From contig OX453287.1 in assembly GCA_949710005.1 (NCBI GenBank), positions 19,803,017 to 19,867,016 of the forward strand: a stretch of 64,000 nt of DNA, given 5' to 3'. Origin of the DNA: Ricordea florida. Its lineage: Eukaryota; Cnidaria; Anthozoa; Corallimorpharia; Ricordeidae. The position numbers were made by a program, and so were the translations under genes. Under the pieces are notes generated by a model. That model saw only the letters and a program-made list of their open reading frames with translations, was not told the origin of the DNA and made no database searches. Of the stretch, positions 13,701 to 59,004 are shown piece after piece. Within the stretch, counting starts at the first letter, position 1; each line of letters starts with the position of its first letter.

Positions 13701-13753
13701 TTGGTTTAAGATTCTTCTTCTCGGAGTTTGAGTTTAAAAGATTTGAGCTTTTA

Positions 13754-13827
13754 AGGCGTCAATTTATGATAATCACTATTTCATGACACTGGAAAGATAA
13801 CAGAGTGAAGACTAGGTTCCAATGCTG
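13754..13827 (+). repeat. Left copy of 74-bp perfect inverted repeat
   Basis: This 74-bp block starts AGGCGTCAATTTATGAT and ends TTCCAATGCTG. It is identical, base for base, to the reverse complement of 58931-59004. It lies 12 bp before the ATG of the KDZ-type gene and 53 bp from the start of the divergent phosphorylase-glycosyltransferase gene. It is the candidate left terminus of a 45-kb element. No matching target duplication was found: the outer 8 bp are agctttta on the left and aatttata on the right. Confidence 0.85.
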
Positions 13828-13839
13828 ATTTGATTCAAG

Positions 13840-16800
13840 ATGGAGGACGAACACGGTAAGAATCTGTATCATTTTGCAATGATTCCTTTTATTCTTTATG
13901 TTTTATCCTTTCGATTTTTTGTATGTCATTTAGCCATGTATCATTAAAAGTTTATATCAAATTCTGTAATCACTTTTCTCACAATCAATCGACTTTTTAG
14001 AATTCGACAGGGAGCAGTGTCACTCGACTCAGCGACATCAAAGGCGACGGAAAGAGAAGCTTCCTGCAATGAGCAGTCTCATCATGCAAAGTAAGGCCTT
14101 ATTGTCAAAGAAAAGAAAAGCCAGGTACCTGGAGTTCAGTAATGATCCTGTCACTGGACGAAGAAACTGCAAGGGTACCTATTCACCCTCAAGAAGACGA
14201 AAGCGTTGCGCCACCGCCACGAATCAAAATGCCAATCTAGATGCAGGAGAAATTGGTACGTTAACTGAAATTTTATAAGCTCAACTGTATGATGTTCGCT
14301 ATATAACCTTCCAGCTTGTCAATGTGATTTTCATGCCAATCAGTAAATATTGTGTCGGCAAATTCTTTATTAAATTTCCAACCATACCTGATCGAGGCGA
14401 CAAGGATTAATACCAGCAGATAAAACCTGACGTTACTGATCGAACTGTTCGTTTGATGAGTTCCAATTTTTGAGAGAGAGAGAGCTCGATTGCGTTCGAT
14501 TTCCGAACTATTCGAACCCAATGACACTTAATCGAACACAATTAAGGGAAAATCTCGGCAAAATCCACCCAAAATACCACCGGATATTTGAACAGTCTGT
14601 CTGAGTAGTAATAGCTACCAAGAATAAACCGAGTATAAAATCGTGCCACTCCATTTTGTGACTTGTTTTTATCATCCTACGGAGTCCCGCATTGTCTGCA
14701 TAAGTAGTAGGTGAGAGGGTTTTGCCCCACACACACACATGTTGTTGTTGTTTTCACCCACACACATGTTGTTTTTTTACACACACGCGCGAACATTTTT
14801 TGTTATCACTCAAGAGTACGAAAAAGATTTATGTAAAGATTCACTCAAAATTACACAAGATCAAGCAAAAGGTGAAGATTAGCCAAACAACCGTAAAGGT
14901 TCCTAAAGATCTCGTAAATTTTTATCAGAGTGTTAATCAGATATTGTGAATAAAAAAATGATTTTAAAAAAAAGAAGTAAAGTTAAAAAACAACAACATG
15001 GATAGACTTACTGTGGATCAGCTGAAAGAACTTGCGAAAGAATATAAAATAAAAGGAAGGTCAAAATTGAGGAGAAAAAGCGGCCTTTTAACAGAATTGC
15101 GAAAAATTCCTGAAATTGTTGAAATGTATGATAATGTGGAACCGCAACTTGGCACGCCTCCAGGTAGCCCCCCACCCACCCCCCGCCCAGGCACACCACC
15201 ACGCCGGCCACCAGCTTTTACAAACCCCGTAAAAAATATTCCTAAACAGAAGGAAAGACCTCTCCCAACCCCTGTAAAAAATATTCCTAAACAAAAGGAA
15301 AGACCTATCCCAACCCCCGTAAAAAATATTCCACCCAAAAATTCAAAAGTGTCAGAAAGAATAAAGTTTTTTGAATCTGTTAAGGATACCAAAAACTCTA
15401 AAAAATCCGAGCCAAAAAGAATATTCAAAAACTACAAAGTGGAAGATAGAAAAAAGTTTTATGAAGAGGTTACATTTACAACTAATGAAAATTTACCCAA
15501 TAAACCCAAAAGGAATATAATTAAAAATTACAAAGTGGAAGATAGAAAAAAGTTTTATGAATCTTTACAAAATCTAACAAATAAGAAAATCATAAAACCA
15601 ATTCCACCGCCCAGAAAAAAGGTTAATAATCAAACACAAAATAAAACTAAAACAGTAGAAAATAAAGATAAGAAAATTAAACTAAGACCTCCAACAAATT
15701 TTAAATTTATTCCTTTTGGAAGAGAACCTGACGAGATAATGGGGCAAAACAACATTGTAATAAATGCGGATCTTATTAATGACATATCACAACTAATTAT
15801 GGATAGAATAAGACCGGAGATACAGATGCGAACAAGGGTTGTATATGGTTTCAAAGCAGAAATTCATCGGGGAAAAGGAGAAATAGTTGAGTACCACAAA
15901 ACAATTTCGGGGAAACAACTAGGAGCTTTAAAAACATTAAAAGAAATTGAGGAGTATATTGAACAATGTGAAATAAAAAGACTAGATTTGGATAACGTAG
16001 AAGTGTGGAATAAAGCGTATCTTCCAGCAACCGAAGTTGTAAAAAAACCTGGTGTATATCAAGGTAGAGTGGTGTTTAAAGAAGTTCATGTAAAAATAAT
16101 TCATACAAATGAAACTTTACTGGGTTGTGGGCCTTTACCAGATTGGCTACACAAGAAGAAATCTATTCATGCTCTTGATAATTATGATAACAAAATGTGT
16201 TTTTGGAATACCCTGGCTGTGTTTAGGAACTATCTTGATGAGAAAAATAGACCCGCCGAAAGAATAAAACAATTAGCTTTAAAATTAGCCCAAGAATTTT
16301 ATGGTAAACCAAATCTGAAAGAAGAAGATATAAAAGGAACGGATCTTATTGAGCTTGAAGATATCTCAAAGTTTTTTGCTATTAACATTAGGATATTTGA
16401 GCCAAAAGAAGACAAAAAAACGTGGGTGTTGGTGTATGGTAAAGGTAAAATCAAAAAACAATTACCAACTTTGGATGCAGGAATTCATAATGATCATTGT
16501 TTTTACATAAAAGATTTACCGATGTTGACTAATAGTTGGGAATGTCATGGATGTGCACAAAGATTTAACAGACATGATAATTATAATAGACATTTGAATG
16601 ACAATACATGTGCAGGAGGAAAAACACAAGTAATTTGTAAAGGTAAAAAATGTGTTCCAACAATGAGCAGCTCAGAAAAAATATTTTATGGCGGAAATAC
16701 CCAATTTAGTTATGTTGGATGTAGATGGATAGAGAAACAGTCTGAACTTATAGGTAAACATATTCATCATGCTCTATGTGGACATGGCGGTGAAAGATGC

Positions 16801-19800
16801 GTTAAGGACGGCGAGAAGGAGATTTTTTTGGTGGATGGTTACGAACCTGTGACTAATACAGTTTTTCAATTTTATGGGTGTAAATGGCATGGTTGCCCCT
16901 GTTCAACTTTTGATAAAACTAGATACAATGAAACGATGAGAAAGGAACAAGTAATCAAATCTTTGGGGTATAATTTAGTATCTGTTTGGGAGTGCGAAAA
17001 CCCTGAATTAAAATATGTAAAATTTAAAAAGAAATTTTTTCATTATCCATATTTTATTGTTTGGGATTCTGAAGCAATGCAACCAAAACAACCTGAAAAG
17101 ATTACTGAAGATCTAACTTTTATAAATAAACATATTCCGATTAGTATAGCTATATCTGATAATTTATCGAAAAAACCAACGTGTTTTGTGAATAATAATC
17201 CAGAAGAGCTTATAAAAGATTTTGTTAAAGATTTGGAAAGAAGACAAAAAGATATTGTTAAAAAAGTGCGAGAGGATTATACTCTTCCGGATGAAGATAG
17301 TATTCCCAAAAAAGTAAAAGAGATGCATGAAGAGTGGTGTAATCAAGTTCCTGTTTTAGGTTTTAATTCAGGAAAGTATGATTTTAATATGATTAAGATA
17401 CATTTTGTAAATAGTTTTACCGAGATGGAGGGTACACTAAATGTGGCAAAAAAAGAAAATAAATATATGTACCTTAAAAATCCCCGTTTTAAATTTTTGG
17501 ATATGATTAATTACTTAGCACCCGGTCTTTCGTTTGATAAGTGGTGTAAAGCAAATAACTGCGAACAACAAAAACTTTTCTTCCCATATCAATTTTTGGA
17601 TAGTTATGATAAGCTTTCTCACATTGGACCTGTAAAATATGAAGATTTTTACTCAGATCTCAAAAAGAAAATAACAATATCCTCCAAAGAATATGAAGAA
17701 TATAAGACCGAAATGAAAAAAAGAGGGTGTATAACCATGAAGGATTGGTTGATAGAGTATAACCAAGGTGATGTTATTCCTTTTGTAGAAGCTGTTGAAA
17801 AAACACGCGCAAAATATTTCTGCGATGAAATAGACATGCTGAAAGACGCGGTATCAATACCCGGAATATCAATGAGATATGTGCTGAATAAAGCCATAAA
17901 AAATAATAAGGGAAAGTGTGATTTGTACACTCCAGGCGATCCTTGCTATTGTGTATGCAGTGTCAATTGTGAAAAACCGAAAAGCGGTAAGGGAAAATGT
18001 AAAAAATGTTTTACTATAAGAAAAGAATGTACTAAATGCAGTAAAAATAAAGCTTATGATCTTTTAAAAACAGGCATGGTCGGGGGTCAGGCCCAGGTTT
18101 TTGTTCGTTGGGCTGAGGTTGGCAAGTCATTTATTCGTTCTAATAATTATAAAAATCCAAAACCATGTAAAACTATCCGTGGTTATGATGCAAATAGTTT
18201 ATATTTATATGTGTCGGGGTTGGAAATGCCTTGTGGTAAAGAGAAATATTTTGAAGTAAAAAATCCAACAGATCCTGAATATATTAAAAAATTTTGTAAT
18301 GATATTCTTACAGATAAATTGTTCGGTTTCTGTCAAGTGGATATTCACACACCAGATAATCTTTTAGAAAAATTTGAGGAGATGCCGCCTTTATATGTTG
18401 TAGATACTGTTCCCGAAAATTTAATACCTGATCATATGAAAGAATATCAAAAAGCTACAGGCAGAAAAACTATAAAAGGAGCACTAAAATTGTTGAGCGT
18501 AACAAGAGCAAAGGAAATTTTACTATATACACCGGTAATAAAATGGTATCTTAATCATGGTTTGGTAATAACAGCTGTTCATAAAATTTTAGAATATCAA
18601 CCAGGAAAACCGTTTGAGTGGTTTCCAAGTGAAGTAAGCAATGCGAGAAGAGATGGTGATATTGAGGTTTTACTAGAAAAGTTAAGTAAAGCTTTTGATG
18701 AAAACAAAATAGATGATGTTGTAACCCTTACTAATGAATTAAATCAATTCCCTGACATATTAACATTTATTGAAGAAAATACGGAGAAGGAGGGGTTGAT
18801 CGAAAAACTAAAAACAAAGTATAAAGGTTGTAAAGAATTGGCTGATACCAACAAACTAAAAGGAAACGCATTTTATGGCAAAATGATTGAAAATAAACAA
18901 GAACACAAGAATACAAGTTATACTCAACACGAGGATGATGTTAATAATGCTATTAGAAGCCCGTTCTTTCTAGATATGGAAAAGATAAAGGAAACTTATG
19001 AAATAATAAAAAAGAAAAGGAGTGTAGAAATAACCACTCCTTATCAGTGCGGAATAGCTGTATATCAACTATCCAAACTTAGAATGTTAGAATTTTACTA
19101 CGATTTTATTGATTATTATTTTGACAGAAGTGATTTTGAGTTGATTTATTCAGATACAGATAGCTATTACTTTGCATTTTCTGATGAAGATTTGGATAAT
19201 CTTGTAAAACCTGAATTAAGAAATGAATATTTTAGGGAAGGTAAAGAAAAATTTCTATCAACCACAAAATATCACGATAGAACACCGGGGCTGTTTAAGA
19301 AAGAGTTTGAAGGAATAAGAATGATTGCTCTTTCACCAAAATGTTATTACGCCGATGATGGAAAGGGAAAAACAAAGTTTAGTTGTAAAGGGACAATACA
19401 GCACCAAAACAATATGACGTGGGGTAGATACTATGAAGCTTTAAAAGGGGCAATAGATAGGGTAAAAAACACAGGTTTTAGAGTTAATAAAAACGAAATT
19501 GTAACATATACTCAAAACAAATTAGGACTTAACGCATATTATGATAAAAGAAGAGTTGAAGAAGATGGAATTCACACAAAACCTTTATATTAAATCGGTC
19601 GAAGACCTCCCCGCTACGCGGAAATCATTTCAAAACAGAAGAAGGAGGCAACTCAGTATCATAGGGGACAACTTGAAGTTCTTCTCGCACAAAACCCCGT
19701 ATTGGCCCTTCTAATAAATAATATAAAACGGGCTGGTTGGGTGAAACGACTCTACGCGTAATATAATAAATTTTTATGCTCCAAATGGGATCAGTAGCTC

Positions 19801-22800
19801 GCCTTTTTTCACCACCCTCAAGCTCTCCTGGAGATAATAAATATCTAACTTTAACCTCAATTGGTAGTCTAACTTCATCAACCCCTACTTCGCGTTGGTA
19901 TTTTTTAGGCTCAATATCAACCTCTTTCAGTTTTATAGCCTTAGCAGGTTCTTTACCGGTTATTCTTGTTGGTGTATTATTCAAAGTTTTTAGAATATCA
20001 GGTAATCTTTTCACCCATACTCTGGATCGGGCAGAGCCCTTTCGTTCCTCAGTCATTTCTTGCGCATATTGATGACTAAATAATCTTTCGCCTAGTATTC
20101 TGTTTGCTCTTTCAACAAATGCTTGGGCTCTATGATTTCCAGCTTCACTTCTTTGTATTTTAACATTATGATAATTCATAAGTTTGGAAACCGCACCCAT
20201 AAATTCTTTTCCAGGATCAACCATTAATGTTTTAGGGTATTTCATTCTTCTGGAATATATTTTTGTAAAAGCTTTAGATATCTCGCGACTTTCTTTTGAG
20301 GTTAATGGTTCAGCATCTTTGTATCTTGAAGCCACATCAACCACAACTAATGCGTATTTATATGTTTTTCTTCCAACTCTATCATGCGGTAAAAATAATA
20401 AATCTGCTTGGTGAATCTGATTGGGTTTATCCACAGTCCAGTGAGGTCTGGGTATATATTTAGGGGATGGAAGATATATTTGCCATATTGCTTGTTTCTC
20501 TAACCATTGTTTTGCCTCATTTTCACTAACCTTTGCCTTTTCAGCTAATTTATTAATAGCAGAATATCCTTTCCAATATCCTTCAGTTGAATAATATATC
20601 TTTGAAAGTATGTTTCCGTTACTCATTTAAAGATTAACCAAAGTATCTTATAAATCAATATGGCAACCGTATCTGAAAAAATTAATCCAAACAGGATTCC
20701 GAGAGTACCGCTGGGTTTGAAAGCGGAATCAACATTGCATAGAATTACTCTAAATCCCTCATCGGCAAATCCTGGAGAAACGCTTTATATAAATATTCCT
20801 AAACTTTCTGAAAATTTAGTGATTGTTCCAGGAAGCGTTTACCTAGTTTTTAAATTGACTGTTGAGGGGCATGAAAATAACACCCTAGTGAATAATGTAG
20901 GTAGTAACCTCGTATCCAGACTCAAGGTTCTTTTTGGAGGTGAAACACTACAGGATACTCAAAGATACGATTTATTTCAAACTTACCACGACTTATTCTT
21001 ATCGGATGAAGAACGAGAGGATGGATTAAGGCAAGGTATTTCTTCTGTAAACATGAGGAAGCTAAGGTCAAATGCGGGCGATAAGGTAGACACAGACGCA
21101 AAAGAAGTAGCCCTTGCAGTAGTACATAACACCAAGTACCAAATCCCGCTAAATCATCCTATTCTAAACGATCACGGGGTTTTCTACCCAAAGGCGTTAG
21201 GTCATCAACTAATATTTGAGATTACTCTAGCTCCAGTCTGGGATATTGTTGTTTATTCTGATACAACAAAGACTCCAACTTACAAAATCACAAACCTTGA
21301 GTTGGAATATTCTTGTATATCAAGCGAATACTTAGCTCGCGAGGCACAGGCAGCTTATCAGGTTGGTAAGGGATTCTTTTATGAAAATGTCACTCTACAC
21401 AAAACTTTCACAATATCCAGGCCTACTGATAGTGTTATAAACCAGCATATTAATCTCCCGAGAAGGTCAATTACGGGGATATTATGTTTGTTTGTCATAC
21501 CATACACCGGAGGAACACGAGATTCTGAGAATTTTTCCAATCCAGGTATCACCTCAATCAATGTCGATGTTAATGGCGTTCCAAATCGTTTTTACTCAAA
21601 GGGAATGGTGCCGTCAGATCTTTGGGAGTCGGTAAAGAAGAGATTTGGAAGAAATGAAGGTTCCTCCCTTCGGTCGGTGAAAGAAAAGGATTTTTATGGT
21701 AATAAGTTTGCTCTGTGGATAGATTTGAGAACACACCCAGATAATAGCATTCATGGAGGGGGTTTAGCCTTAAACAATGCACAAGACGGAATAAAAATAG
21801 AAATTAAAAGAATAGCTATTGGTTCTGGTATTATGACTTGTTACATGTTTGTGGTTGCTGATGCATTAATGGAGGTTATGAATTCAAACTTAAGATCAAT
21901 CATGTACTGACTAAAGGGAAGAACTTAGTTAAAAAGATGGAAGAATTACGAGATAAAATTCCTTTTCATTGTATAATAACAGGCCCAACAAATTGTGGGA
22001 AAACAAAGTACATCATAGATCAATTACGAGGACCATTTCTAAAATTGTTTGAATTCATTGTTTTAATATGCCCAACTTATGCTAAAAATAAAACTTACCG
22101 AGACTTTGCTCGAGGAGATAAACGTTTCTTTGTATTATCCCCTGATGCTAGTAATGTTGATGAGATTAATGAGTTATTAACTGATTGCCAAACTTTATTC
22201 TCGGGAACAAATACACTAATAATTTTAGATGATTGCGCCGTTTCGAGTGATCTGAAGAAACGAACGAATAAGTTTATAGATTTAGCATTCTCCGGAAGGC
22301 ATCATGGTTTATCAGTTTGGGTTCTCACTCAACAATTAACATCGATATCAAAACCATTCCGTGAAAATGTTGCCTGCGTTGTTACTTTCCATAATCCATC
22401 GCAAAAGGGGATGAAGATGCTTTTCGAAGATTATGGGGGTGATTTAGACCCTGAAACTAGTAAAAAGTTTGTTCAACTCCTGAAAAAAGAAAAATATTCT
22501 AGACTATGTTTGAGTTTGCGTTACCCATTTAATTGTTATTTAGAGATTCCCGAAGTGATTTAAAAATAACCCATTTATTATCACAAAGATGACTGAAATT
22601 GAAGATTATATTAGCGAAGAAAAAGATGTACAACCGAAGATAGGAACGGTAAAAGATGATAATGAACTTGAAATAAAACAAGAATCACTAGCCATTCTAG
22701 CATCCCTTGGAACTACAAAGGAATATTTGGGGGTTGATATGAGTCTGGGAGATGTAAAAAAATTATCAGGAAAAGATGTAGAAAAATATTATAATCGCTA

Positions 22801-25800
22801 TCAAGCGGTATTAGGAAAGAAAATTAGCGGAGGATTGGTAGATTCATCTCTTCAATTAGTTTCTCAAGTCATTTCTTATATTGTTCCTGTGGATGATATA
22901 GAAGCTCTTTGTAAGGATTTGAAAAATGATGATTTGGTTAATCGTGAACTAACAAACATTGTAGGTCTCTTAGCATTGAAAGCAGGAAGATTGGCAGCAC
23001 TTGCTAGCGGGCTATTTCAAGTAACTAAACACATTAAATTAGGTAAAAATCAACAAGTTGCAAGTACGACTGAGCATAAAATCCAAGAGGATTCCAACAA
23101 AACTGAGAAGACTACTAAGCAAGATGCTGGCGGTACTGATACTGTTTACTAAGCATGATTTAAAGATTTCTTAATGATATTTAAAATAATGTCTGACCAA
23201 ACTGAACGAAGTGAAGGAGGAACAGAAGTTGCGGAACAAATTACAATGGATCCCACGCCAGAAAAGAAAGATTCAAAAAAGAGAGAAAAAGACCCTAAAA
23301 AAGTCGCTGCTGGTAAGAAATTAGCGGAATATAACAAAAAAGCGAAAGAAGCATTAGCTAGGGAGATGAAAAGGGAGCAAAAAATTAAACGCGAAGAAGA
23401 GAAAAATGAAGAAGAAACAGTTGAATCAAAATCATGGCTTCCAGAGTTATCTTTTACAACTGTTTTATCCGTTGTTGGATTGGGGTTTACAGCATTTGAT
23501 ATTTTTATGAGATACCGATCGAAGGAAGGAGCCCGACAAAAGGAGGATAATAAAAACAGAATACCTGATTGTCCTGCGGTATCTCAAGCCCCTCCCATAA
23601 AGATTCATAATCCACAACCAAAAATTGGAATGATGTAATTATAAATTATTTTTTACTACAAACCCTAAAGATATCTAAAGGTTTCTTACTGATGTAGTAA
23701 AAAATCATGTCAAACGAAAACAAACTTGTTAAAACTGTTACTGATTCCGCAGTACTTATCGGATTAGCAGCTGGAGTTGGGTACGTGGCTAAAAAGATGA
23801 TGAAAGAATCATTTATGAATGATCCATCCTCAAGTGTTACAAATTATGCAAAATGGGTAGCTGTATTGTCAGGTAGTATGTACCTAAAAACATATTTAGA
23901 GGATCAAAAGATTTTACCGACCTAAAGGGGAGGAACCTCAAATTAAACATGGCAACAATAGCAATGATGTTTGGAGGAGCAGTATTAAATGCAACTGCCT
24001 TTGTTGGCGGATCATATCTTGCAAAATATCTATCAGGAGATAAAACCGATACAGAAAAAATACGGCACGATAAGGCATTAGAAAAATATCAAAAAGATTA
24101 TGCCGCATTTCAGGAAAATAGACAGAAACTAATTGATTGGAAAGTACAACAAAAAGATGAAAAATACCAAGCATCAAAAAATATTTCGAATACGGATGAA
24201 CAGTTTGAATTTTATTCCGCTTCGCTCGATGAACCAAAATTCTCTGATTATTATAGACCAAGTAGTAATCAAAAGACGGGGGAAATATGTGGGAGGAGGA
24301 ATGTTGGCATTAGGTTATGCAGCAAGTAAATTATTTTAACTTATTATATAACTTGTAATACATAAGTTATATAACATAATTCTATTTACATGAGACTTCC
24401 ATCATCATCGCTATCAATATCAGATTTTATACTTAATTCTTCTATTAATTCAGCTGATGATTTTGCCTCTGAAATAGCAACTTCTTCATCATATTTTGGT
24501 TTACGCATTAATTTTTTGACTTCAATTTGTGGTTCTATATAAGCTTCATATAATTTTACTTGAAGAGAAATTATTTTTGCACCAATAAATATTGATTCAA
24601 TTTTGATTACGCATTCAGTGCGACAACGTTTATTCAATAAATCTGTATATTCAATTACTTCATCCGTTTTCATATTATAAAATTTTGTTAGGTATCTATT
24701 TTCTCTTCTTGAATGCATTAATTTTGCATACAATGTTGGTCCTTTTCCTTCAGCTTTTTGCATATAAGTTTTATTATTAGCATCAGTAATTTTCACCATT
24801 TTCCAATATAAAGGATTCAAACCTCCTTTTATTTTTTCAAGATCTTTCCTTTCCAAATCATACTTTTCAATTTTGTCTTTATTTTCTATCAAATGATCTA
24901 TACAGCAATCCACTATTTCGTTAAAATTATTGAGCCATTTTTCTTCTTCTTCCGTTGGTTCATCCCTAGACCATAAACACAAAGGAAAAGTATATCCACT
25001 AATTTTTTTTGTTTCTGGGTTTACATTTTCTGAAACTCCATATGAATACAAACGATTAGTTGGAATAACTAATTCTCCTTCAGTTCCATCTTCATTTTTT
25101 GTAAAGATGTTAATACGTTTGAATTCAATCTTTGGTTTTGTTCCAGGAACTTCCCCTGAAATTGGTTTAGAAAATACAATATTTTGTTTTGGGTTGTAAT
25201 TGTTAACATTTATTAATTGTGTATTTTCATTAGACATTTTTTCTTATTTTTCTTATCTTTCAATCATAATTCATTTTTTATAATTTCCAAAAATAACTTT
25301 AGGTCTAAAGATTTCTTTACTGATTAGTAAAAAAATCATGGCAGAAGGAGGAGATGTACCTAAAGAAATACCAGACTTTGAACCAACTGATCTAGACGAT
25401 GATGTTGATAGAGAAAATATGGAAATGGATCCAATATCATCAACCACCAGTCTAATTAACCCTGATGATGATGAGGAAGAAACTTCATTTGGTGGTAGGG
25501 ATTATGAGGAGGGGGGTGCCATACCCAAAATACCCATTGATAGATATGATGAAAGGAGAGATGCACTACAACATATCAAACGTTTGTTTCCAAATTTCAA
25601 CCCTTTGGATTCTCCATTTACAGCAGAATGGGATGAGTATGGTAATTTGAGGGTTAAATTGAGTAATCAGAAAAATGCTGTAGGACATATATTGATTGAT
25701 AAAGATGGGGTAATAAAAGTTGATAATTTACCAATTACCTTCAGAAAAGCTCTAGGTGCTGATTATGAATCCATGCTTATAAAAAATAATAATCTTTTAT

Positions 25801-28800
25801 CACAATGGAATGAAGCTAATGAACAAAATATGGAATTACTTAATGTAGTACAAGGTTTGGAAGCAACCACAAAAGTATATCCTTTGGAGATTAAGCTATA
25901 TGAACAAAAAGAAAAAGAAATACGCCAATTCGCTGAGAAACAACAAGTTGAAAAAACGGAAATAAAAAGTCTTTTTGACGCAACTGTTAAACAGAACACA
26001 GAATTAAAAATACAGAAAGAGAAACTTTTGAATGAATTGAAACGATACAAAGATGAAATAGATAAGTATAAGAAGGGTCAATCAAATTTAACAATGTTAG
26101 AACGCGGTAATGAAAGATTAAAAGCTGAAGTTGATAAATTCAGAGAACTAACAAGAAAGAGTATTATTTACAACCAAGAACAAATAGCTGATCTGGAGAG
26201 TAAAAATGAAGAAATAATTAAAAATCTACCATTACGGGAACGGATAAAGTATATCTTCAAAAAGTACGGTTTTACAGTCTTTGCTGTTGTAAGTGCTGTT
26301 GGTGTTGTTATTGGTGTTATAGTTTCTAATCTTTCCAAAGGTTTATCCACATTAGGTAGGGGTGTTGGTAATGGTTTTAAAGCTATTGGTAAGAAACTCG
26401 GTGAAATATTACCTGGAATGGTTGGTGCAATAGTCAGCTTTCTGTTCAAAACAGCGGGTGAGGTTATTGGATTTTTAGGTAAGAATGCTTGGCTTTTGAT
26501 AATGGCTGTGGTTCTATATTTTGTGGAACAATTTAAAAAGAAGGGACGCTAAGTAAAAAAAACATGAATGATACAATATTTCTATCTATCTATATGCTTG
26601 CTCCCAAAACAAGAATTTATCTAGATCCACCCTTAACCAATGTAAAAGAGATACAAATGCTATTTAGCTACATTCCTAAAGCGTTGAATACAAATCCTTT
26701 CTACTTAATGTGTGATCTTATAGAGTCAAAGTCTTCATATTCCAATTGTTGTATACCCGAAGGTGAAAATGTAAAACTTAAACCCGCACAACTACTAGCT
26801 GTTATTCCATCTCAAAATCATCCTTGTTTAAGAGTTTTACAAACCAAAAATCCGGTCAACTACTTTGATTTGTTGATTTTAGATAAAAAAGGAAGAAAGG
26901 CTGACTTAAATAACGAACCCATTCGTATCTATTTAAAGATTTCCTGTTGATCAGAAAAATACAATATGGATGACTATAATAGAATTTATCCTAATCTGCC
27001 CGTTAATTCCGCGAATTTCAGACTACAAAAGTCATGTGAAGTACTACAAAATCTTGAGAAGGAAATTAAACATTACGGGGAAGTTAGAAAAAAGTATAAC
27101 CGAGCTAGGGGAATATTTACAAAAATCAGTGTTGGTAGTGGAGTGTTTTCAGTTATCTTATCTGCAAGTGGATTGGGGACCTCTCTTACTGGTTTTGGTG
27201 CTGTTGTTGGTATACCATTAGGAGCTGTGGGGGGTATTTGTGGGGGAATATCGGTTGGATTTGGATACGCATCAAAAAGACTTTCACATAAAGTTAGTAA
27301 ACATGAACAAACAGTTTCTCTGGCAAAAGCAAAAGTAAACACTATTAACGACTTGGTTTCAAAGGCTTTGAAAGATAATGTTATATCTGATCAAGAATTT
27401 TCTCTAATTTTATCAGAGGTGGATAAGTTTGAAAAACTAAAACAAGAAATCCGCCAAAAAAACATTAAGGATACAGAAAAAAACTTAAATATGAATCAGA
27501 TAAGGAGAGAAGTTCGAGAGGAAATATTAAAAGAATTAACCGGCGGGAAAGAACATTAAAAATTTCATATGAAAGAACTGATGTTGGGTTCAATTGTTTT
27601 GCAGGCATTAGAAATACTAGTGAATATTAATACTTTACATCTTATTCTTAATCTAAAGACCAGATTATCTGAAACACAAAGAATAAGATGTTATTATACG
27701 ATTTCAAAAATAGGTACCCAAACGCCAACCTTAATAAATTTACATTTGTGAATGATTCATATGGAGGATATATTAAATGGAAAGTTAATGGGACAGCAGT
27801 TATGTCAAATGATGATCCTACTGGAAAAACTTGGACTGATTATCTTCCTATTAATTTGAAAACATTATTATGGCAAGATTTAGGGTTAGAAAATAAAGTT
27901 AAGGTTGGTTCATTTCCAAAAAGTTTATCCATTACAAATCAAAAATACTCAATACCAGCTATTAACTTTGATGACTTTACAACTGATATAACAAAAATGC
28001 TAACCTTTCTAGATATATACGTTTCAAATACAAAGAAATTTACAGCAAAGATGAGAAACATATTTACATCTCAAGTTGTAACATTCAAATTTGGAAAGCA
28101 GAGTAGAAAATGGTTAAATTCACCTGATATGAATTATTGGCCTCAACAGCTTAACTTTGCAGTATGGTGTGCTACATCTGGCTGTGGTATAAGTCCTTTT
28201 GAGAGTTTAAATTATCCTAAAGTAGTGAGTAGTTTCATAAAGTTTCATGTGTATTTTACAATAAGACGAATATTGTATGAAATGAAACTACCTTTACCCG
28301 ACGAACAACCTTTTGTGATAAATAATAATCCATATAGTAAAGTTGCATATCAACGATTGTGCGCTGAATTTGGGGTTAGTAATAATTCTGACTTTAGATG
28401 GAAAGGTGGAAGAAATTCAGGATTAGGAGATATATTCCTTGATTACGGTGCAGGATATCATGGAAAAGGAGGGGGATATCAAAATGTACATATTGTAAGA
28501 AATTATGATGTTGAAGCGGATCAATGGCCTGGTGAAGGCGGTAAATTCGCTGATGAAGGAGGTAAGAAAGAAAAGGGTAATCTCATCTCATTTATCCGTA
28601 ACGATGACTTTGCCGATTTCAAATATGCTTGGTTTATCCCAACAATCGGGCATGGACTCACTAAAGCTGGACTTGGAAGATTGAATCGGTCTGCAGAAGC
28701 TTTTGTATACTGTATATTGGGGGCACAAGTAAACACTAGAAATTCTATTTATGGTAATGGTGGTGGAGCGATAGAGACTCAACAAGAATTCTTGTCTTTA

Positions 28801-32784: not shown

Positions 32785-32823
<39 letters not shown>

Positions 32824-45440: not shown

Positions 45441-45454
45441 TTGAATATCGAAAA

Positions 45455-46266: not shown

Positions 46267-46272
46267 GGCCCA

Positions 46273-46307
<35 letters not shown>

Positions 46308-47891
46308 CTGAGGTATTAAGTGCGGCAAAAGAGCGGCGTCTGAATCAGTTTGGTACGGCAGTTTTAATTTGGTGCGGCAAAAACGTTAAGTTCGACAGGG
46401 TCTGTCGCATTATTCGACATTGGAGCGGCAGGTGATTCATACGGCGTTCTTCTCATGTGCCGAATCAAATGCATACATTATGATAATTTATAAATCTTCC
46501 CATAAGTCCTTCCGAGAACTTGTTACGCATGCGCGTAAGTCTTACGAGGAAGGGAAAATGGCGGCAAGAGACGGATAGAGCTGTAAACAGTGCAGAAGAT
46601 GGACCAAATATCGCTGCATTCGCTGCAAAGTAGCCATTTGCAACTTATGTAGCGAGCCAGAGATGGATGAAAGCATATTGGATAGGTGGGAAGAGTGTCG
46701 GCTACTGTTTTGAGTGCGAAACTGTAAGGCCCGTAACCGAGTCGCTGATCGTAAGTAAGCACAGTTATGAAGAAGCTGAAGAAAAGGAAGATGCGACAGA
46801 TGAAGGCCACAGATAAAAGGAAGGGTAATCTTCTTTCGCTAATAAAAGTGATAATGAGCAAGAAGCTGTCACAAACCAGAAATGTAAACACCCGATGTAG
46901 TTATGTTTGCAGTTTATCTCATGCGTGATTGATTCTCTTTTCCAACACAACAAAATCATCGCCGAAGGAATTCCAGCATTCAAGGTTTCCTTTGTTGCTT
47001 TAAAGTAAGCGTAAGTTTAAGTTAGGTGATTAAAATTGATCAACAGAAGGGTATAATTGAATAATTTGAAACTGCAAATTGCTTGTGTTAATGTTTATAT
47101 TTATCCCTCTGTGGAAGGTCAATAATAGTGGCCATGTTGTGGTTCAATTTTTTCCTTGGTTTAAATTTTATTTTCCTTGGTTTACATTTATGTTCTTTCG
47201 TTCATTTCCTTCATCTTATCCTTAAAGTCCTCCTCAGTGCATGGCATATGCTTCTTGACACAGTCCTCCCAAAGGTTTTCAACGGTCGATTGACATACCT
47301 GAGTTACAATCTCATGTACAGTTGAAACACCCAATCCAGCCATTTCCGCTATGGTGTAGTAATAATCACCTCTTCCGAGCCTATAAAGGCAAATGCCTAG
47401 CCGACATTCGGGTGATATGGGGTCTTCGTTTACTGTCTGGCGTTCCAAGTCGTTTCGAATCCGGTTCAGAATGAAACTGAATGTATTCTTCGAAATTCTA
47501 AAAGTTATCTTGAATCGTTCATCGGTATATGTTGTCCAAACCATCTCCCACCAGCCGTTGCTCCTGAGCAGACCGCCAGCAAGATCGTACATGAACCATC
47601 TCCGTGGCTAAATTCTGCTTACGCGAAAGCAACAATATCCCTGCCAAGGACAAAAGAAGAGCTATCCGTCGTCTTCTTAATGCAATGGGCATTTGCGCAC
47701 TTTCGGAAAACATCCTCCTGCGTTCGTTTCCCCGAGAAATATCTCTAATCAGAGCTATCCTCTCCTTCACAGCCACCATCTTTGAAAGTTGAATTATGGC
47801 GCGAAGATATGATATCGGACCCAGGTCTTTTTCGTTCTCCCTACATGAAATAAAGATTAGGTTCGACACACGGTGCGCCGTCTGAATCAGA

Positions 47892-47922
<31 letters not shown>

Positions 47923-47933
47923 AAACTCAATTG

Positions 47934-47965
<32 letters not shown>

Positions 47966-47971
47966 CAGGCC
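46267..47971 (-). mobile_element. PIF/Harbinger element with truncated transposase
   Basis: Terminal inverted repeats of about 38 bp (GGCCCAGTTCAGACGCCGCT... and ...AGCGGCGTCTGAACCAGGCC) flanked by TAA on both sides (46264-46266 and 47972-47974), the 3-bp TWA duplication of this superfamily. Inside, minus strand 47592-47188 encodes a HARBI1-like N-terminal region. Confidence 0.85.
47188..47592 (-). pseudogene. Harbinger transposase N-terminal fragment
   Basis: 134 codons with GWWEMVWTTYTDERFK, FSFILNRIRNDLERQ and the helix-turn-helix region RLGICLYRLGRGDYYYTIAEMAGL, typical of HARBI1-like transposases. It ends before the DDE catalytic part, so the copy is non-autonomous. An overlapping minus frame (47519-47902) may represent its upstream part. 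Confidence 0.7.
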
Positions 47972-48571
47972 TAAGTTTTGATATCAAATTCACTGCGCGG
48001 CCTAATGCTTTTACACAGACATTCAATTTTCTGTTTCTAATTCTTTTTAAAGTCTTCATACGTTTCTGACATTTTTAGGATCGATCGATTGAACGAAATC
48101 GAATTATTATACCTCGCTCTTTTTCACAGCTTCACTGGAGTCCTAAAGAAAAAAATGTTCCGAAGAAATCGTGGTAATTTTCCTTCGAAGGTAAGGTTAC
48201 TCCCCGAAAACAGATAGAGAGATGAGCGCGCCATGCAGTGCTAAATCATTCTTAATTTTGGCACATTTGGACTTAACAAAATTACAAAATTGCTTTGGCA
48301 CGGTTTTCCACGCTCGTGCAATTTTCAGAATCCAGGAATTCGAGTAATAATTGTGATTCTTGATATTAAAAGGAAACCAAATTGTACACTAAAGGAATAC
48401 TCATGAAATTAGGAAATAATTTGACTCATGGTATTTTATTTCAAAGTTATAATAATCGAATGTTTAATCTGATAAATTGCACGTGCACAATATGAAGCCA
48501 TTTGATTAGTCGTCACTATTAGGTTAAATAATATAATGAGTTTAATTTTGGCGCTAAATTTAACAAATTGA

Positions 48572-48748: not shown

Positions 48749-50153
48749 TTTTTACAATAACAAAACGCGAAAAAGGTCAAATGAAGCCTTAAATGAAAAG
48801 AAAACGCAAGTAAACAGCAAGTAAACTCGAAAAATGCTGAATTTTATTTAAATTGACGCAATCAGGGTGCAACTATTCTCAATAACTTTTCTTGCCTTCT
48901 CATTGGCTTGTGACAACACGTAATACAATTTGATTGGGTAAAAATCTGACTGTTTGACAGCTCACTTATCACGCGAAAAAACCTTGCATAAATTAAAATT
49001 TTATGTGTCTGTACTCTTATTGATGATAAAAATTAGCCAATCAGCGTGCGAGAATTCGCTCAGTTATTGTAAAATCTATGATTTCACATGTGTTTACGTG
49101 AAGGACAGGTGTGGGGTGGGAAAGAGGCAAGGGTACCCCAACTAAGTGAGCATCCCACCTAACCAATCTACCCTGGTTGACCAACTTTTGCATACATTCT
49201 GTAAGAAAAACCTGTGTACATGTGAGACAGGCCAGGTAGCCTGGGTAGCCTGGCCAGCCAAGGCAGTAAGACACTACCTCTCAACCTCCATTTTCATTCG
49301 CCCACTGTAAACACTACCTCTACTGTTATTCAGGGCTAGGGGCATTGTTATGACCTGTTATCTATTGTTTTTAGAACCAATGAAGTAACTCGTTCTGAAA
49401 GGTAGTGGGCGACCCAGCCAAGGCACCCTGTCTGCTTGTTTATTTGTACCACAATTCTATGTGGGCTATCAGGATAAGGAAAAATTCAGAGACAGACCAT
49501 TATTTTTTTTTTTGAGCGGGTGGGGGAATCTTGGCAAGGTAGTTTTTCCTCTTCAGGATGTGCAACATTTTTTTATTGGCCACTTGGTTAATGTTTTTCC
49601 CTATGGCTCCCCTTTGGCATGATTGTGTTCAGCCTTTTTCCTGTGCAGGAATTTTTTTTGGAAATTGCTCATACCCCCCCCCCCCCCTTTCCATAATGGA
49701 AATCAATTATTGTGTGCTTTCTGGCACAGGCATACATCCATGAAAAGACACTGATTAGAAAACATATTCTTAATTTCAGTTACAATTTTGGAGAAGAGTT
49801 TTTTGTGTTTTGCAGAATATGAAAATTACTGCTAAAATATAATCTATTCCAAAAGAAACATGACAAATTCAAAAGGATAATGACTTGTTTTCTGAGTATG
49901 TGTAGAACTTTTGTCAACCAAACCTTGAGGTAAAACCATGAGGTCTTACTTAAGTATGTCAACTTTAGGGGAGGTTGGATTAATTGTCAGTACACATAGA
50001 GTTTGTTGTTCAAATTTTTAACTTCATGGGAAAATTGTTTAGTGGGCTGGAGTTAAATACATTTGCCATTTTTTTTTCATAACGGTTTTTTTTTTTAAAA
50101 ATTGTCCAGTGCTGTCACTGACACTGATAATTATTTTTGTAATAACTTTTCAG
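48749..50153. other. Non-coding stretch before the zinc-finger frame
   Basis: Contains a partial copy of the fold-back arm near 49015 and a poly-C run at 49674-49687. No convincing exon. Confidence 0.4.
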
Positions 50154-51266
50154 GGCAAAAGTGGTGTTTGTCGAATTCAAGGCTGTCCACAAATGGGAAA
50201 AATGCTCAAGAGACTCGACAATCACCTTTCAAGGTGCCACCAAGGGGTGACAAGAGCAATGAATGATTGACAGCCACATTTTGCATCACAATCTAGGTCA
50301 CGTGTTACTTGCATGTTGCCTGGTTGTGGAAAAGAGGTCCTGCACTTATCCAAACACCTCAAAAACATCCATGCAATGAGTGCCACTGACTATCTTGCAA
50401 AGGTGGAAGAAGAGAGAGAAAGTCAGGGAAAAAGAAAAAGTTCTTCCAAGTACCACACAAACATAGATAAAACAAATGAGACTAAGAAAATAAAAAATGA
50501 CGAAAGTGTTCATGATAAAGAGACAACTGGGATGGGCTTTGAACCTGTTCCAGAAAGTGACTTGAGTGAAACTTCCACTGTGCAGGACAGTCCAGATGTC
50601 TTCAGAACTGAAGATAAGGATCCAGAGACAACTGGGATGGTTTTTGAAGCAGTTCCAGAAAGTGATTCAAGTGTACTAGATTTCACTGAACAAGAAAGAC
50701 CAGATGTCTTAAGAAGTGAAGATAAGGATGCAGTTCATTGCGAACCAAGTAAACTGGTTTTAGAAGAGTTAAATCCTGATACATATTCAAGGGAAAAACT
50801 CAGATACCTTGTGCACAACACATCACCTGATGGTGTACGTTTCCTGCTTGTGTATGTAAAAAGAAAAGGAGGTTTGGCAGACTTTCATAGGTCAAAACTC
50901 TGTACAGACATTCTTGGAAATATGCCTTTTTCCACAGTGAAAGAAATTTACCTCTACCGGAAGTACCTGACAAGTTTTTATCGGTTGGCCAGGTTCTACC
51001 CATATCCTGATAAAGAGATGATAAATAGTTGCTTGGCCTGTGATGTGATGGGGAAAGGACAATGTTCATGTCCCGTTCTTCCAAAGTCTTTTTATATTTT
51101 TTGTAGACAAAAATGCTCAAGTGACTTAAATTGTAAGAAATGTATTTATTTTGATCACAGACCATCTCATTGTTTTGATTTTTTTCACTGCAAACGATGT
51201 GATGAGGACTACAAAGCATCCACAAGACATCAGCCGTACCCACAGATTAACAATGGTGCAAATTAA
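50154..51266 (+). pseudogene. Zinc-finger protein gene with an in-frame stop between its fingers
   Basis: An acceptor (ttttcag) at 50153 opens a frame with one C2H2-like unit (CRIQGCPQMGKMLKRLDNHLSRCH) that meets TGA at 50268. The same frame continues with a second similar unit (CMLPGCGKEVLHLSKHLKNIH) and stays open to 51264. From the ATG at 50313 the protein has 317 residues: an acidic repeat-bearing middle (ETTGMGFEPVPESD and ETTGMVFEAVPESD) and a Cys-rich C-terminus (CLACDVMGKGQCSCP; CSSDLNCKKCIYF; CKRCDEDY). Either the TGA is a disabling mutation in a multi-finger gene, or 50313 is the true start and the upstream finger is relic. Function unknown. Confidence 0.5.
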
Positions 51267-52618: not shown

Positions 52619-55600
52619 CTACTTCCTGTAAACATAGGGTGTCAATGCTAATGATTTATTGGCTAACAGCCTTGCTGTCATCAAACACTTAGCAGGTAAT
52701 GCAAAAAACTTTCCCTTCTCCAGAAATGAGTTTTCAGACTCATCCCCAAGAATGAGTGGTGCCTCATGGTTTGGTTTGGTGGTTGTGATCATAACGCAGT
52801 GATGGTCTGGGGGGATTCTAAAACCATGAATGTTTTCTCTTTGAGGTTGAACATGACCTCCTGCAACAATGGTACCATTAAGAACATACACCACCATATC
52901 TCCTACAACAAAAATATGTGCACATATCAGTATTCATATCTGTATCAGTGCAATTAATGTGAATAAGGGGAAGCAGTGTTGAGGCCTAAAGAGAAAAGAA
53001 ATAAAAATGGCTGTGAACAGACCATCTCGTGTATAACAGACCATCTCTTGTATATTTAACAGTTATATTTCCACAAGTGTGCATTGGACATGAGATGGTA
53101 GATAGCCAACGAGGCACGTTAAGCGCCAAGTTGCCTATAACAATCTAATATCCAACAAGCACAAGTGGAATAATTGTTTTATTAAAAACACCCAAAAGAA
53201 TTTCAATATTTGAGCTCCCCAGCTGTGTTTGTTCATGCGTATCAGTTCCTGTTCACAGAGGTTGTTCATTTGCTCTCAACCTCTCACTTTATTATTTTTG
53301 TGTAGTATGTAGTGGATCATATACCTGATTGAGGTGTCAATGAAATTGGTGATGCTATATCTTCCAGGCTGTTGGATTCCAGGTGTGATTCTTTATTACC
53401 TGCATTACGTAAAATATGAACCACATTTTACAATAACAAGGCAATAAGTGCAATTTTAAATTCATGTAAAGAGCTCATGAACAAAAGCATAGTCACTATG
53501 TCCATTCTACAGTATGGTCTCTACAAATTTAAAAATGATTCAGGTATGCAGACCACTTCTGTTAAACTTGTCCATAATTATTCCCTGCATGCCTAGACAT
53601 CTTAATCACCAGCTACACATTAAGAAGGTGCTGCAGAATAAAAACCACCCCTAGCTATACACTTTAATTTCAATAAAGCTTGAATAGTTGAAAACAGTGT
53701 TCTTTCCATTTCTTTAATTACAGTAATACAACTCCGCAGGGGCAAGTTTAACAATTATTAGTCATATGATTAACAGTTGCAAATGGGTTATTCATAAACA
53801 GTTTTTGCTATCAAGTTCTCACTTTGATAATTTTTTAATGTAGTATATTGTGGATCATATACCTGGTTGAGGTGTTGATGAACTTGTTGGCATTACATCT
53901 GTTACCCCTTCACGGCTGTTGAATTCCTGGCCTGATACGTTACCTAATATATATATTTATATATAACTAATTAACTGGAGACAGTACTGTTTCGGCATTC
54001 TGGGCCTCATAAGTGCAGTGCTGATGCTAGGATGGAGGTTGAGCTATAAAGCCACCCCAAATGATCCCACACATGGCATCATCTAAGCCATAAGTGCTCA
54101 AACTAGTAAAACTAGTGAGCATATAATTTCAATTTCATGAAAAGTAAACACTGTCCAGCCATAGAATTATCACTACCAATTTGGAATGATTCAGATATGC
54201 AGACAGCACAATGGTGTTTGTCAAAGCTGTACAGGGGCGTAGCCAGGACGATCCCTGAGGTTTTCTTGATTCCCTCCTTTGTGATATAATGTTTTAATTA
54301 AACAACATACAAACCTAATAATTCAGGTGGCTAAAAAGCGTGAATCAGGAGAATCAACATGCCATAAATTGTTTGTAGTGCTAGTTAGTTACATACTCCA
54401 TTTTCAGGACCAACCATCTGCAGTGGACTACGTAAGTACCCTGGGTGTGAAAGTGTGACCATGCACTTTTTTGAAAACTCCTTACCTAGCTATGCCCCTA
54501 CTATAATATGTACCTTAAGCAACTAGAGGAATAAATTGCTACTCTTCCTGTATGATGAGATGCTTCTCCATGGCAGGTGACCCCCCCCCCCAAGCATTTT
54601 GTCAGGTATCTTTGACAGTTTGCTGGTTAAGCCATTTATACAGCTACTACATTAAAGCTCTTAAACTGCCTAGAAAGCTATAACCATCAACTAGGCAATG
54701 CATCTCCCAAAAAAAGTATACTCATAGCAAATACCCAGAGTTAACCCTTCACCTTGCAGAGTGGAGGAACAGTAAAGTTGTCATTATTAATATTGTTAAA
54801 AAATTATTATACATCTAAATTTTACATCTTATTTGTACAAGCTACAATCCACATAAAGCAGCTTGGATACATTTCCCGTGAATAAAACAAATAAAAATAA
54901 TAGCAGAAAAGAAGAGCAAAATACATGTACAAACCATTTTCGTGGGGCATGGCAACCTCCTTATTGCCCTTGTCTGACTTGAGTGACTTGAGATCTATGC
55001 ACACACACACAAAATGCACAATTATTTAAAAATATATTTAGTAGGAAGTAAAAAAAGAGAGAAAAAAAAGCAGTTAACTGCATGTATTGAAGCTTAAGGT
55101 CCCCTATACGTTTTAATGAAGTGTGATTGGGGTTATATATTTTTCTGTGAAACATTTCGTGCTTCGTGATTTCCAATTTCAGTATCGTTTCTTTACCTGC
55201 ACATGAAATATGCACTTTTTAACTTAAACCTGACCATGCGTGAATAAAGAATTGAATTAGATGTGATTCATGAATCATCTTGTTTTGTGTGAGTAGTAAA
55301 TGTATGTCTTTGTTTTCCGCTCTGTGGTTGGGTTTTTTTGAACACAAAACTTTTGTGAGCAAAATCAAGATGTGATACTTTTGCAACACAAATTTCAGCA
55401 GTTTTAGGCCTTCAGAGCGCAACAGTTTGAACAGGGATCGCCTTGATTTTTGCATGAATGTGATAATATCTTGGTTATTATTCATGACGCATGATAATTA
55501 AGGCCTAACATTTTTACGTTATTACATTTAACAAAGGGGTATAAAGGACGCTCTGTATTTTCTTATTTTCTTAATTTTCTTTAATTGAATATTTAAAACT

Positions 55601-58600
55601 ACAAGGTAAAATATAAATAAAACCATACTTTTGTTCTCTTTTCCAAAGTATTACTATGCACTTTGACTCATTTTTTGACAGTCAGTGAGATAATACAGAT
55701 ATAATGATGACCATGCAATTTTCTCCTTTTCAAGGCCCAGTTGTTCAAAAACTGTATACCATCCAGTGGATAAGAAACTTTCTTTTCTTATCCCTTTACC
55801 ACTGGATAGCAATTATTTATAGCACGGATTTATCTTGTGAATAGGGTTATTCACACTTTGATAAACTGGGGCTAGTTGTATTATTTTGTTTGTAAATATA
55901 ATTTTTGATTATACCCTCCATAAACTTTCGAAAAAGTCTAACAGCCATTGCACCGCCATCTGATGTTTTAACATCACTTTTGTTTCCTATGAATGAGACA
56001 CCTTCTCCCTCTGTTCCATAAAAAGTGACGGTTTCACCACTTGCATACTTGTGGCACATCATGATGACAACATGGCAATCATGATTATAGTGAAGGATGT
56101 CTGCCTGCAATGACAAGCATATGTACAAGAAAAGCAATATACATACTGAATTGTGTTAAAAAACACAAATTTTAATATGAAAAATATGATTTTTCAAAAA
56201 CAATAAGTATAATTATAATATACAGTTAATAATTATATAATAAACACCAACAAAAAACAATACCTCCATAGCAATAATTAATGAAATGATATACAGATGC
56301 TATAATATGGCCAACAGTATGCAAAAGAGCATTGCCCACACATTTGTTGAGTGCTACTGTTTAAAGTTTTTCTTCAAAATTATACTTTATGTAATGTTTA
56401 ATAAATGAGCAGCAGTGTTTTATCAAGTTTAAAACATGAGGCACAGCCGAGTGTTTTAGACTTGATAAATTATGAAATGCGAATTTATTGAATGGCTTCA
56501 AACTCTTCTGATGTAGATCAACTCATTCTTGTACTAATATTTAGATTTGAGGTTATTTTGGCCCAGAAAATTGAACGTAAAATTCAGCCATGTCTTTATC
56601 AGATATAAAGACACTCATTAATAATTACTCATTACTATTAATGAGTTTCTGAATATATATTGTATCATCTCACAGTGCAGAGTCATTTCAGCACTGGGTA
56701 AAACACCAACTAGGCAGGGAGCAACCAGTTCTCTAAGTCTAGCAGGCAGCTGGGAACCTCAACAAGATGCGGAGGCCAGGACTGCTGTCTTCTGGATAGC
56801 GTCACTAAGGCACTCGCTCTCAATGCCTAGATGTTTATTATTTATTTTATTGAACTACTTCAATAGCTAAATAATGCCAATGTTCTTCCCTTGTATGTTA
56901 TTTTCTTTCTGGATTTACCATAAAGGCCTGGCTGTCACATAGTCCAAAACAGAAAACAATAAACAAAGAAGTTTGATCAAAAGACAAAAAGCTACTTAAT
57001 TTTATCATCTCTGTATAATAAATACTTAATTGGCTACATAGTGCTAATTTTAATGTAAAAAAGACAAAACAGTAATAGATGGGCAGAAATCATTGTGAGT
57101 TTAAATATTTTGAAAATTATTATGATTAAATATCATTACGAAACAAATAAACATGTTACAGTGAGATAAACACTTTGAATTAACTCACCCGTTTTTCCAG
57201 AAGTCTTTTTTGCTGAGTGATGTTTGTTTTTAAGTTTTTCAGTTTGTCAACATCCTTGAGCCGTTTCGGAAATGGTGTCTCACATTCCCCACATATCTTT
57301 GCAGCTATTGGCTGTTCTTCTGAACAGTAGGAGCACCTCTGGATTACAAAAAATAAATAATTTAACAAAATAAAGCAACCATAAATTTTACTTAGGACCT
57401 AATGAATGCTCTTTTGGGCTACATCACGGGCATTTCACAGATTTTTGGTCTAATCTGTTCTGAAATTAGTGGTTAAGGTAACTTAACCCAAGGAAGACAT
57501 AATTCCCTAACTTTGTGGATAGAAATCAAACTCAAACTATAAATATTGATTTTCAACAATAACGCTCGGATGAAAAAAAAATTTAAGTTGCAATCCATTT
57601 CCATCCAAGCCATCAGCAGGAAAGCTGCTTGCTGACAGTTTCAGTGCTCTTATATAGCAATTATTGTTAATAAAAATGAGCATTATGAGCGTTAACTATA
57701 AATTTTAGCTGTTTGGAAATCTGTCAAAATCCGTGACAAAGGTGCAATCATTATACTGGAGTAATTTTCTAATATTTCATTAGAAATATGAGCTGGAAAA
57801 ACCTTTGGCAGTCCAGACTTAGGGGCGCAGGGTTTCAGGGGAGCAGGGTTGGCGCAGTGGTGAGAGCGCTCGCCTTCCACCAATGTGGCCCGGGTTCGAT
57901 TCCCGGCCCCGGCGTCATATGTGGGCTGAGTTTGTTGGTTCTCTACTCTGCTCTGAGAGGTTTTTCTCCGGGTACTCCGGTTTTCCCCTCTCCGCAAAAA
58001 CCAACATTTGATTTGATTTAATTTATTTCATTTGTGCTTTACAGTGTCCCCAATTAGTACAGCAGTGCTAAATACACTTGACACTCAAATAAAGTTCATT
58101 ATTATTATTATTATTATTACTTATGATGTGAGATGTAGTCACCATCAATTTATTCAGATCATTAGTGCCACTTGCCTTATAACCTTTCCTCCCTTTTGCT
58201 TGTGAGTTATCTATGGGACAAGTGCACATTTAAGAACCATTTTTATTCACATTTCTAATTTTGCCTTATGTCTATAGTTATAACATTGCAGCCATAATTA
58301 AAGATTCTACTGTAAAGCGCAACCAAACTTATTCAGTGGATTATTCACACGCCAAACGTGTCACAAGTAAGATTCTAAAACATTACATCAATTTAAAAAG
58401 GACAGCCTTAGTATACATATCCGCTTTTTTTGGCTGCTTGGATTGTCAAATAATTTGAGTGATGGGCTGATAGGCTCTTACAAGTTCCTAGTAAAGCTAC
58501 GCGTAATCATTTATAAGCTTAAATTTGTTCAGATTTGTTTGCCATATTTACTACGTACAGCGCACCGCGTAGCGAATATATACACATTGTAAAGCAGTAA

Positions 58601-58923
58601 AGGAAGCTTTCCCGCGACGTATCCTAGGAGTTGGAGTGCCAGGGTATTCCGTAGTTTAGCTAGCCAACTTAATGACTGAGTAGCTATACTGGTATGGCAA
58701 GCATTCAAACTGTTCGCAGTGAAGCAACATTTGAATTAAACTAAAACCCCTGGGAGCAACTCTGTGAATGAACGTGATCCATAAACGGTTCATTAGCTTA
58801 AAATAAAAGAGCACGCGTGAACATAAATTAAAACAAGCAATTATTCAATAGAAAACACTAAGAAAATTATAAAACACTTACCAGCCATGCTTGACCTTCT
58901 TTTGTTTTTCGCGGGAAACGCAT
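52619..58923 (-). CDS. Cys-rich protein gene at the right end of the 45-kb element, 7 exons (289 aa)
   Basis: Minus-strand exons with matching phases: 58882-58923, 57189-57338, 55915-56104, 54935-54994, 53863-53931, 53325-53399 and 52619-52902; they give one open frame of 289 residues. The N-terminus is basic, followed by a zinc-ribbon-like four-Cys unit (CSYCSEEQPIAAKICGEC) and a Leu/Lys helix. Exons 5 and 6 look like a duplicated small exon: both are Ser/Thr-rich, end STPQPG or LTPQSG, and share the same donor context. The last exon has a beta-rich part. The start codon lies 7 bp inside the right 74-bp repeat. Family not recognised; as a partner of the KDZ-type gene it may be an accessory DNA-binding protein of the element. 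Confidence 0.65.
57843..58120 (+). repeat. tRNA-derived SINE
   Basis: The head resembles a tRNA gene with A box (TGGCGCAGTGGTGAGAGCG, about 57850) and B box (GGTTCGATTCC, 57893-57903). It is followed by a body with ctccgggtactccggttttcccctc and a 3' (ATT)n tail. The tail and body show it is a SINE, not a functional tRNA gene. It lies in an intron of the seven-exon minus-strand gene. Confidence 0.85.
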
Positions 58924-58930
58924 CGACCCG

Positions 58931-59004
58931 CAGCATTGGAACCTAGTCTTCACTCTGTTATCTTTCCAGTGTCATGAAATAGTGATTATCATAAATTGAC
59001 GCCT
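58931..59004 (-). repeat. Right copy of 74-bp perfect inverted repeat
   Basis: Reverse complement of 13754-13827 with no mismatch over 74 bp. It lies 7 bp before the ATG (58923) of the inward-facing seven-exon gene, mirroring the arrangement at the left copy. It is the candidate right terminus of the 45-kb element. Confidence 0.85.

Follow-up and report, generated by a model that had tools for sequence, protein, structure and literature searches.

A probable autonomous KDZ transposon of about 25 kb with a predicted deubiquitinase domain in Ricordea florida

Genes and features of the locus

The window, by which we mean the whole 64,000-nucleotide stretch of Ricordea florida DNA analysed here (C16:19803017-19867016), carries exact inverted copies of a 74-bp sequence at 13754-13827 and 58931-59004, far beyond chance; the perfect inverted repeat of the original prediction is thus borne out, both copies being exact over the full 74 bp. 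Outside the repeats, host-like ORFs lie to the left on the minus strand (8412-13733), with matches to the GT4-conflict glycosyltransferase domain PF20706 (E 4.6e-80) and to PNP_UDP_1 (E 7.4e-8), which we take to be domains typical of genes for conflict systems or immune receptors; the frame with the PNP match extends to within ~20-55 bp of the cut left repeat. To the right, also on the minus strand, is a multi-exon-looking coding region (59373-63976) with a RING finger at 60019-60426, while three other ORFs of that region gave no Pfam match above the cut-off.

A plus-strand KDZ transposase gene begins 13 bp inside the left repeat and was modelled, splice sites included, over 13840-40140 as 16 exons (13840-13855, 14001-14255, 32224-32604, 33197-33301, 33877-34115, 34493-34674, 34918-35014, 35424-35759, 36291-36408, 36604-36750, 36901-36945, 37174-37461, 38009-38173, 38372-38542, 39013-39075 and 39167-40140) encoding 1,193 aa in an open frame, which stayed open in four variants of the splice model. 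The start and the intactness of this gene are as originally predicted, and the predicted exon number of 17 becomes 16 in our model; an automatic gene model arrived at 17 exons, with 1,223 residues when the stop is counted. The frame is open in five of the six copies examined. Pfam identifies the KDZ domain PF18758 (E 8.2e-29, 101.3 bits against a cut-off of 26.6) and the cysteine cluster CxC3, PF18804 (E 3.5e-21), and a Nematostella homologue is 45% identical over 98%. D380, D500 and E554, which we infer to be the catalytic DDE-type residues, are conserved in 15/15, 13/13 and 15/15 aligned sequences, respectively. Viral contigs searched for a relative of the Nematostella transposase yielded 24 pattern-matching stretches, of which zero were confirmed.

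The end of the last transposase exon (39511-40137, plus strand) encodes a C-terminal domain predicted to be a viral-tegument-like deubiquitinase (VTD). Its predicted fold is papain-like and closest to M48/VTD; a first fold of the whole last exon was a poor model (pLDDT 48.8) with structural matches of the same kind, and the fold call is based on a second, better model. C34, D162 and H164 (a Cys plus Asp-x-His arrangement), the presumed catalytic residues, are invariant in the five rows of the alignment (A3). A VTD match was found in 5 of 14 KDZ relatives, and the nine without one are shorter (662-1,001 aa). A sequence search of the PDB with a further alignment (A1) returned no useful match.

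Downstream of the transposase, an array of 35 copies of a 113-bp minisatellite occupies 41447-45443 and varies in length between copies of the element. It is followed by gene P, whose plus-strand 331-aa ORF (50271-51263) is zinc-finger-like, appearing C2H2-like by eye, all of its Pfam matches being below the cut-off. Coding sequence also lies upstream of this ORF within 50043-50267, and a premature stop at 50268-50270 in the window is absent from the four other copies in which this region is present. Gene R, on the minus strand at 52619-58936, would encode a cysteine-rich, zinc-ribbon-like protein of ~290-315 aa and has its start codon inside the right terminal repeat; its modelled exons include 58882-58936, 58143-58210, 57189-57338, 56002-56104, 53863-53926, 53325-53399 and 52619-52902, the middle ones being uncertain. 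Its zinc-ribbon Pfam matches also fall below the cut-off, and a MADS-like assignment considered by eye was dropped, as it found no support in Pfam or in a PDB sequence search. The inward-facing cysteine-rich gene foreseen at the right end is therefore there, with its start moved: since an Acropora homologue supports another frame, position 58924 was abandoned for 58936, in the repeat, or an ATG further in. Homologues of all three element genes occur in other anthozoans, for gene R just one.

Dispersed copies, element ends and the size of the unit

All 30 candidate matches to the 74-bp repeat in the genome (537.8 Mb in 48 contigs) were scored; 22 of them pair up in inverted orientation, giving seven long pairs (~25-45 kb from end to end) and four short ones (1.7-7.8 kb), eleven in all, and the other eight are single ends, including a second left end on C7. 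When the surroundings of the 28 matches besides the window's own two were compared, homology was found to continue outward for 47 bp beyond the window's left copy, up to a shared CAACATG terminus, at 25 ends (that of the left end of the C6b copy lacking its first three bases), while the remaining three ends are degraded. In these other copies the full terminal inverted repeat is 121 bp, and the 74 bp seen in the window are its inner portion. The window's left repeat (13754-13827, plus strand) retains only this portion, without the outer 47 bp and the target duplication, and its right repeat (58931-59047, minus strand) is 117 bp long, falling short of the full 121 bp by its last 4 bp. This loss of 47 bp and 4 bp explains the absence of a target duplication, so that the earlier failure to find a clear one holds for the window copy, which, with both ends damaged, is probably now immobile. 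A TATAAA-like stretch, noted by eye in the outer part of the 121-bp repeat, has gone from the window's left copy.

The uninterrupted element measures 24.8 kb in the C6a copy and 25.3 kb in the C13 copy. Of the 45-kb giant KDZ transposon originally proposed, the KDZ transposon thus stands, but the mobile unit is ~25 kb and the remainder consists of nested inserts absent elsewhere: the window copy is longer because Polinton, Harbinger-like and SINE-like insertions lie inside it. The largest, on the plus strand at 14703-30904 in transposase intron 1, is a 16.2-kb Polinton/Maverick bounded by 287-bp repeats that are 97% complementary, and its empty site was read in five other copies. It has Pfam matches above the cut-off to rve (E 8.2e-10) and Pox_A32 (E 9.6e-11), a Capsid_N match that at 20.4 bits (E 4.1e-4) does not reach the cut-off of 24, and a 1,541-aa ORF, a putative counterpart of the protein-primed family B polymerase, for which Pfam returned a weak Rho_N match alone. 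With its retroviral-type integrase, packaging ATPase and long repeats, and a putative capsid-like protein, it resembles known Polintons/Mavericks, the difference being that here it is a passenger inside the KDZ element and not the element itself. An insert at 46266-47972 with a TAA duplication, which we presume to be Harbinger-like, gave no Pfam match, and its empty site was read in the C13, C6a, C6b and C7 copies. A 297-bp insert at 57822-58118, which we take to be SINE-like, appears as an alignment gap against all five other whole copies, in one of which the empty site was read.

That the whole 45-kb unit is the transposon, with the Polinton and the other inserts as regular cargo, might be suggested by the presence of a Polinton in three of the seven long KDZ copies (the window and those at C2:39360501 and C16:3230275). 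However, the window's own Polinton is missing from five other copies, which show a clean empty site, and the three Polintons are inserted at different points, with no more than 69-84% identity between them where they align; two lie in transposase intron 1, only ~65 bp apart, and no Polinton is shared at a shared internal position among the seven long copies. The terminal repeats of the C2 and C16 Polintons are 100% identical (over 352 and 376 bp), so these two probably inserted recently. Such nesting may, moreover, be expected from the abundance of Polintons, and we consider the 45-kb unit very improbable. Genome-wide, 121 scored integrase matches are at least 88% identical and first-look candidates number 5,877, the real Polinton number probably lying between the two. 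With the long copies adding up to ~175 kb of the 537.8-Mb genome, these figures give expectations of 0.04 and 1.9 hits, respectively, against the three of seven long copies observed, and the idea of the Polinton as cargo or as a targeted passenger was set aside, enrichment not being shown by a range this wide.

Ten pairs other than the window's were considered for target duplications and seven were testable; of the remaining three, the C7 pair contains a run of N and L023 and L025 each have a degraded end. All seven testable pairs are flanked by a direct 7-bp duplication, whose two copies are identical in six cases and differ at a single position in the seventh. When left and right flanks of different pairs were combined, none of the 42 combinations matched with one mismatch or fewer. 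The original prediction had named paired repeats around KDZ genes, with varied flanks and a short duplication, as the marks of a transposon, and these were found at several sites. They also bear on a segmental duplication, in which a multi-gene host locus with inverted repeats would have been spread by recombination, as the near identity of the copies and the presence of two in tandem on C7 beside an N gap might suggest. Against it, the flanks differ outside the repeats, the boundary base is constant at most ends, short derivatives have just the ends and the minisatellite in common, and the 7-bp duplications at 7/7 testable pairs refute it as a general explanation, leaving it a very slight probability overall, even if the C7 pair itself may have arisen in this way. 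At that site (C7:30505830-30542863) two left parts of a KDZ element stand in tandem with 200 N between them, the first copy ending at the N gap; the tandem is possibly an assembly duplication.

Five other long copies were compared whole, together with parts of a sixth, C16b (the seventh long copy), of whose first ~20 kb (3230275-3249774) only the end entered the comparison. Across five copies, window included, divergence from the C6a reference was 0.10-0.38% with the array excluded, measured over 13.4-13.7 kb outside the array, or over 21.9 kb for the two C7 pieces combined. The C16b parts are 99.2-99.6% identical to the window, and the window's long alignments, array included, show 97.2-99.9% identity. 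With one KDZ exon as query, 29 matches were obtained in total, eight places at 98% identity or above and other KDZ families at 66% or below. Since the compared copies differ by just 0.1-0.4%, we conclude that movement was recent. A domesticated gene cluster with the repeats as relics, to which the large intron-rich genes and the damaged window copy might point, is likewise very improbable, being contradicted for the family by the dispersal of seven long copies (of which the six that were compared in full are at most 0.38% from C6a), by their target duplications and by non-autonomous derivatives; for the window copy taken by itself it may apply.

Short derivatives, a second family and a proposed mechanism

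The short derivatives (L022, L023, L024 and L025) retain the 113-bp minisatellite. Three of them, of 1.7-2.9 kb, consist of two inverted right ends (~650-700 bp each) around 113-bp repeats, and L024 (7.8 kb) has the same build plus an insert of ~6 kb in one end copy. Because these derivatives keep just the ends and the array, their structure suggests that the minisatellite acts in cis.

A second KDZ family lies at C2:13.17-13.20 Mb (C2:13172000-13199999; L053-L055), where one copy was examined of four exon matches in the cluster. Its transposase aligns with that of the main family in 12 blocks of 32-85% identity, eight of them at 45-66%, and has a C-terminal domain with the same Cys and Asp-x-His motifs; with it occur a 102-bp minisatellite, the counterpart of the 113-bp array, as well as homologues of gene P (40%) and of gene R (45-56%), in the same order and orientation. 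Between its imperfect 98-bp repeats (84%) the element measures 23,996 bp. The repeats start with CAACATGATCTCGAG, and their termini, CAACATG followed by CTCGAG, are similar to those of the main family. Its target duplication is 8 bp, TTCTTACC, so that, judged by this one copy, duplication length seems to differ between the sister families. It is inserted within a Polinton, the nesting being reversed relative to the window: one flank aligns with 28495-28852 of the window's Polinton (87%) and the other with 25935-28491 (76%), two segments that adjoin each other in the window. That two diverged families share this gene layout suggests that the added genes do work for the element instead of being cargo picked up by chance.

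We interpret these data to mean, with a probability of about 0.9, that the locus derives from a recently active autonomous KDZ (Kyakuja-Dileera-Zisupton) cut-and-paste transposon of ~25 kb with 121-bp repeats, within which the roles of the VTD domain and of the added genes are proposed. The reading is built on what can be read from the DNA itself, namely the copies and their ends, the 7-bp duplications, the empty sites of the nested inserts, the open frames, the three conserved genes and the minisatellite; the true ends, the unit size, the predicted deubiquitinase fusion and the conserved layout go beyond the original prediction. In the mechanism that we envisage, the transposase would bind the terminal repeats and make 7-bp staggered target cuts through its DDE-type site (D380, D500 and E554), while the VTD part would deubiquitinate the transposase, or proteins acting with it, and thereby spare a large complex from degradation. 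The two cysteine-rich proteins, P and R, may bind end or minisatellite DNA, or may shield the element from silencing. The genes on both sides would plausibly be driven by putative promoters that lie within the identical repeats or next to them.

More tentatively, and in our estimation rather doubtfully, the element may belong to a lineage of its own among giant animal transposons, one whose parts come in a set arrangement: a KDZ transposase-deubiquitinase fusion, a long minisatellite, a gene for a zinc-finger-like protein and, convergently oriented, one for a cysteine-rich protein. In such a lineage the minisatellite, bound by one of the extra proteins, would work in cis and allow a DDE transposase to bring together ends separated by 25 kb, the deubiquitinase would stabilise the complex, and the short derivatives would be parasites retaining exactly the parts required in cis.

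Comparison with known systems

As a many-exon KDZ transposase gene between terminal inverted repeats, the Ricordea transposon resembles Zisupton as described in PMC12730594 and PMC9297572, and the 8-bp target duplications that the former gives for Zisupton recur in our second family. The main family differs from it in its 7-bp duplication, its size of ~25 kb, its predicted VTD domain, its two added genes and its minisatellite. With the fungal Kyakuja the main family shares the 7-bp duplication and 5'-CA..TG-3' termini: two Laccaria Kyakuja families, chosen for their TET/JBP genes, have both according to PMC12730594 and are reportedly without terminal inverted repeats, in contrast to the 121-bp repeats and the predicted VTD domain found here. 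As Zisupton and Kyakuja marks are mixed, we place the element in KDZ without naming a sub-lineage. A Hydractinia table in PMC9926710 lists one likely KDZ transposase gene. Our literature search found no description of a ~25-kb KDZ-VTD element, subscription journals being mostly beyond its reach, and the main text of a review of giant eukaryotic transposons (PMC6431247) mentions neither Zisupton nor KDZ.

Of a first set of non-viral VTD homologues collected in PMC9741609, the majority are in Helitrons, and the domain predicted here resembles the VTDs described in that paper in its papain-like fold, its Cys and Asp-x-His residues and its residence in a transposon. It differs from that set in its host element, a KDZ cut-and-paste transposon; the term KDZ is absent from the main text of PMC9741609. 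A KDZ transposase fused to a predicted deubiquitinase of the herpesvirus-tegument type would show concretely where the transposon-linked VTDs that the paper notes in cnidarians could come from, and it makes testable the idea that transposons benefit from ubiquitin removal. Finally, the efficacy of DNA transposition is said in PMC6431247 to fall strongly above 6 kb of cargo; despite this reported limit, a three-gene unit of 25 kb has moved recently in an animal, and the element illustrates how a large multi-gene cut-and-paste transposon can be built.
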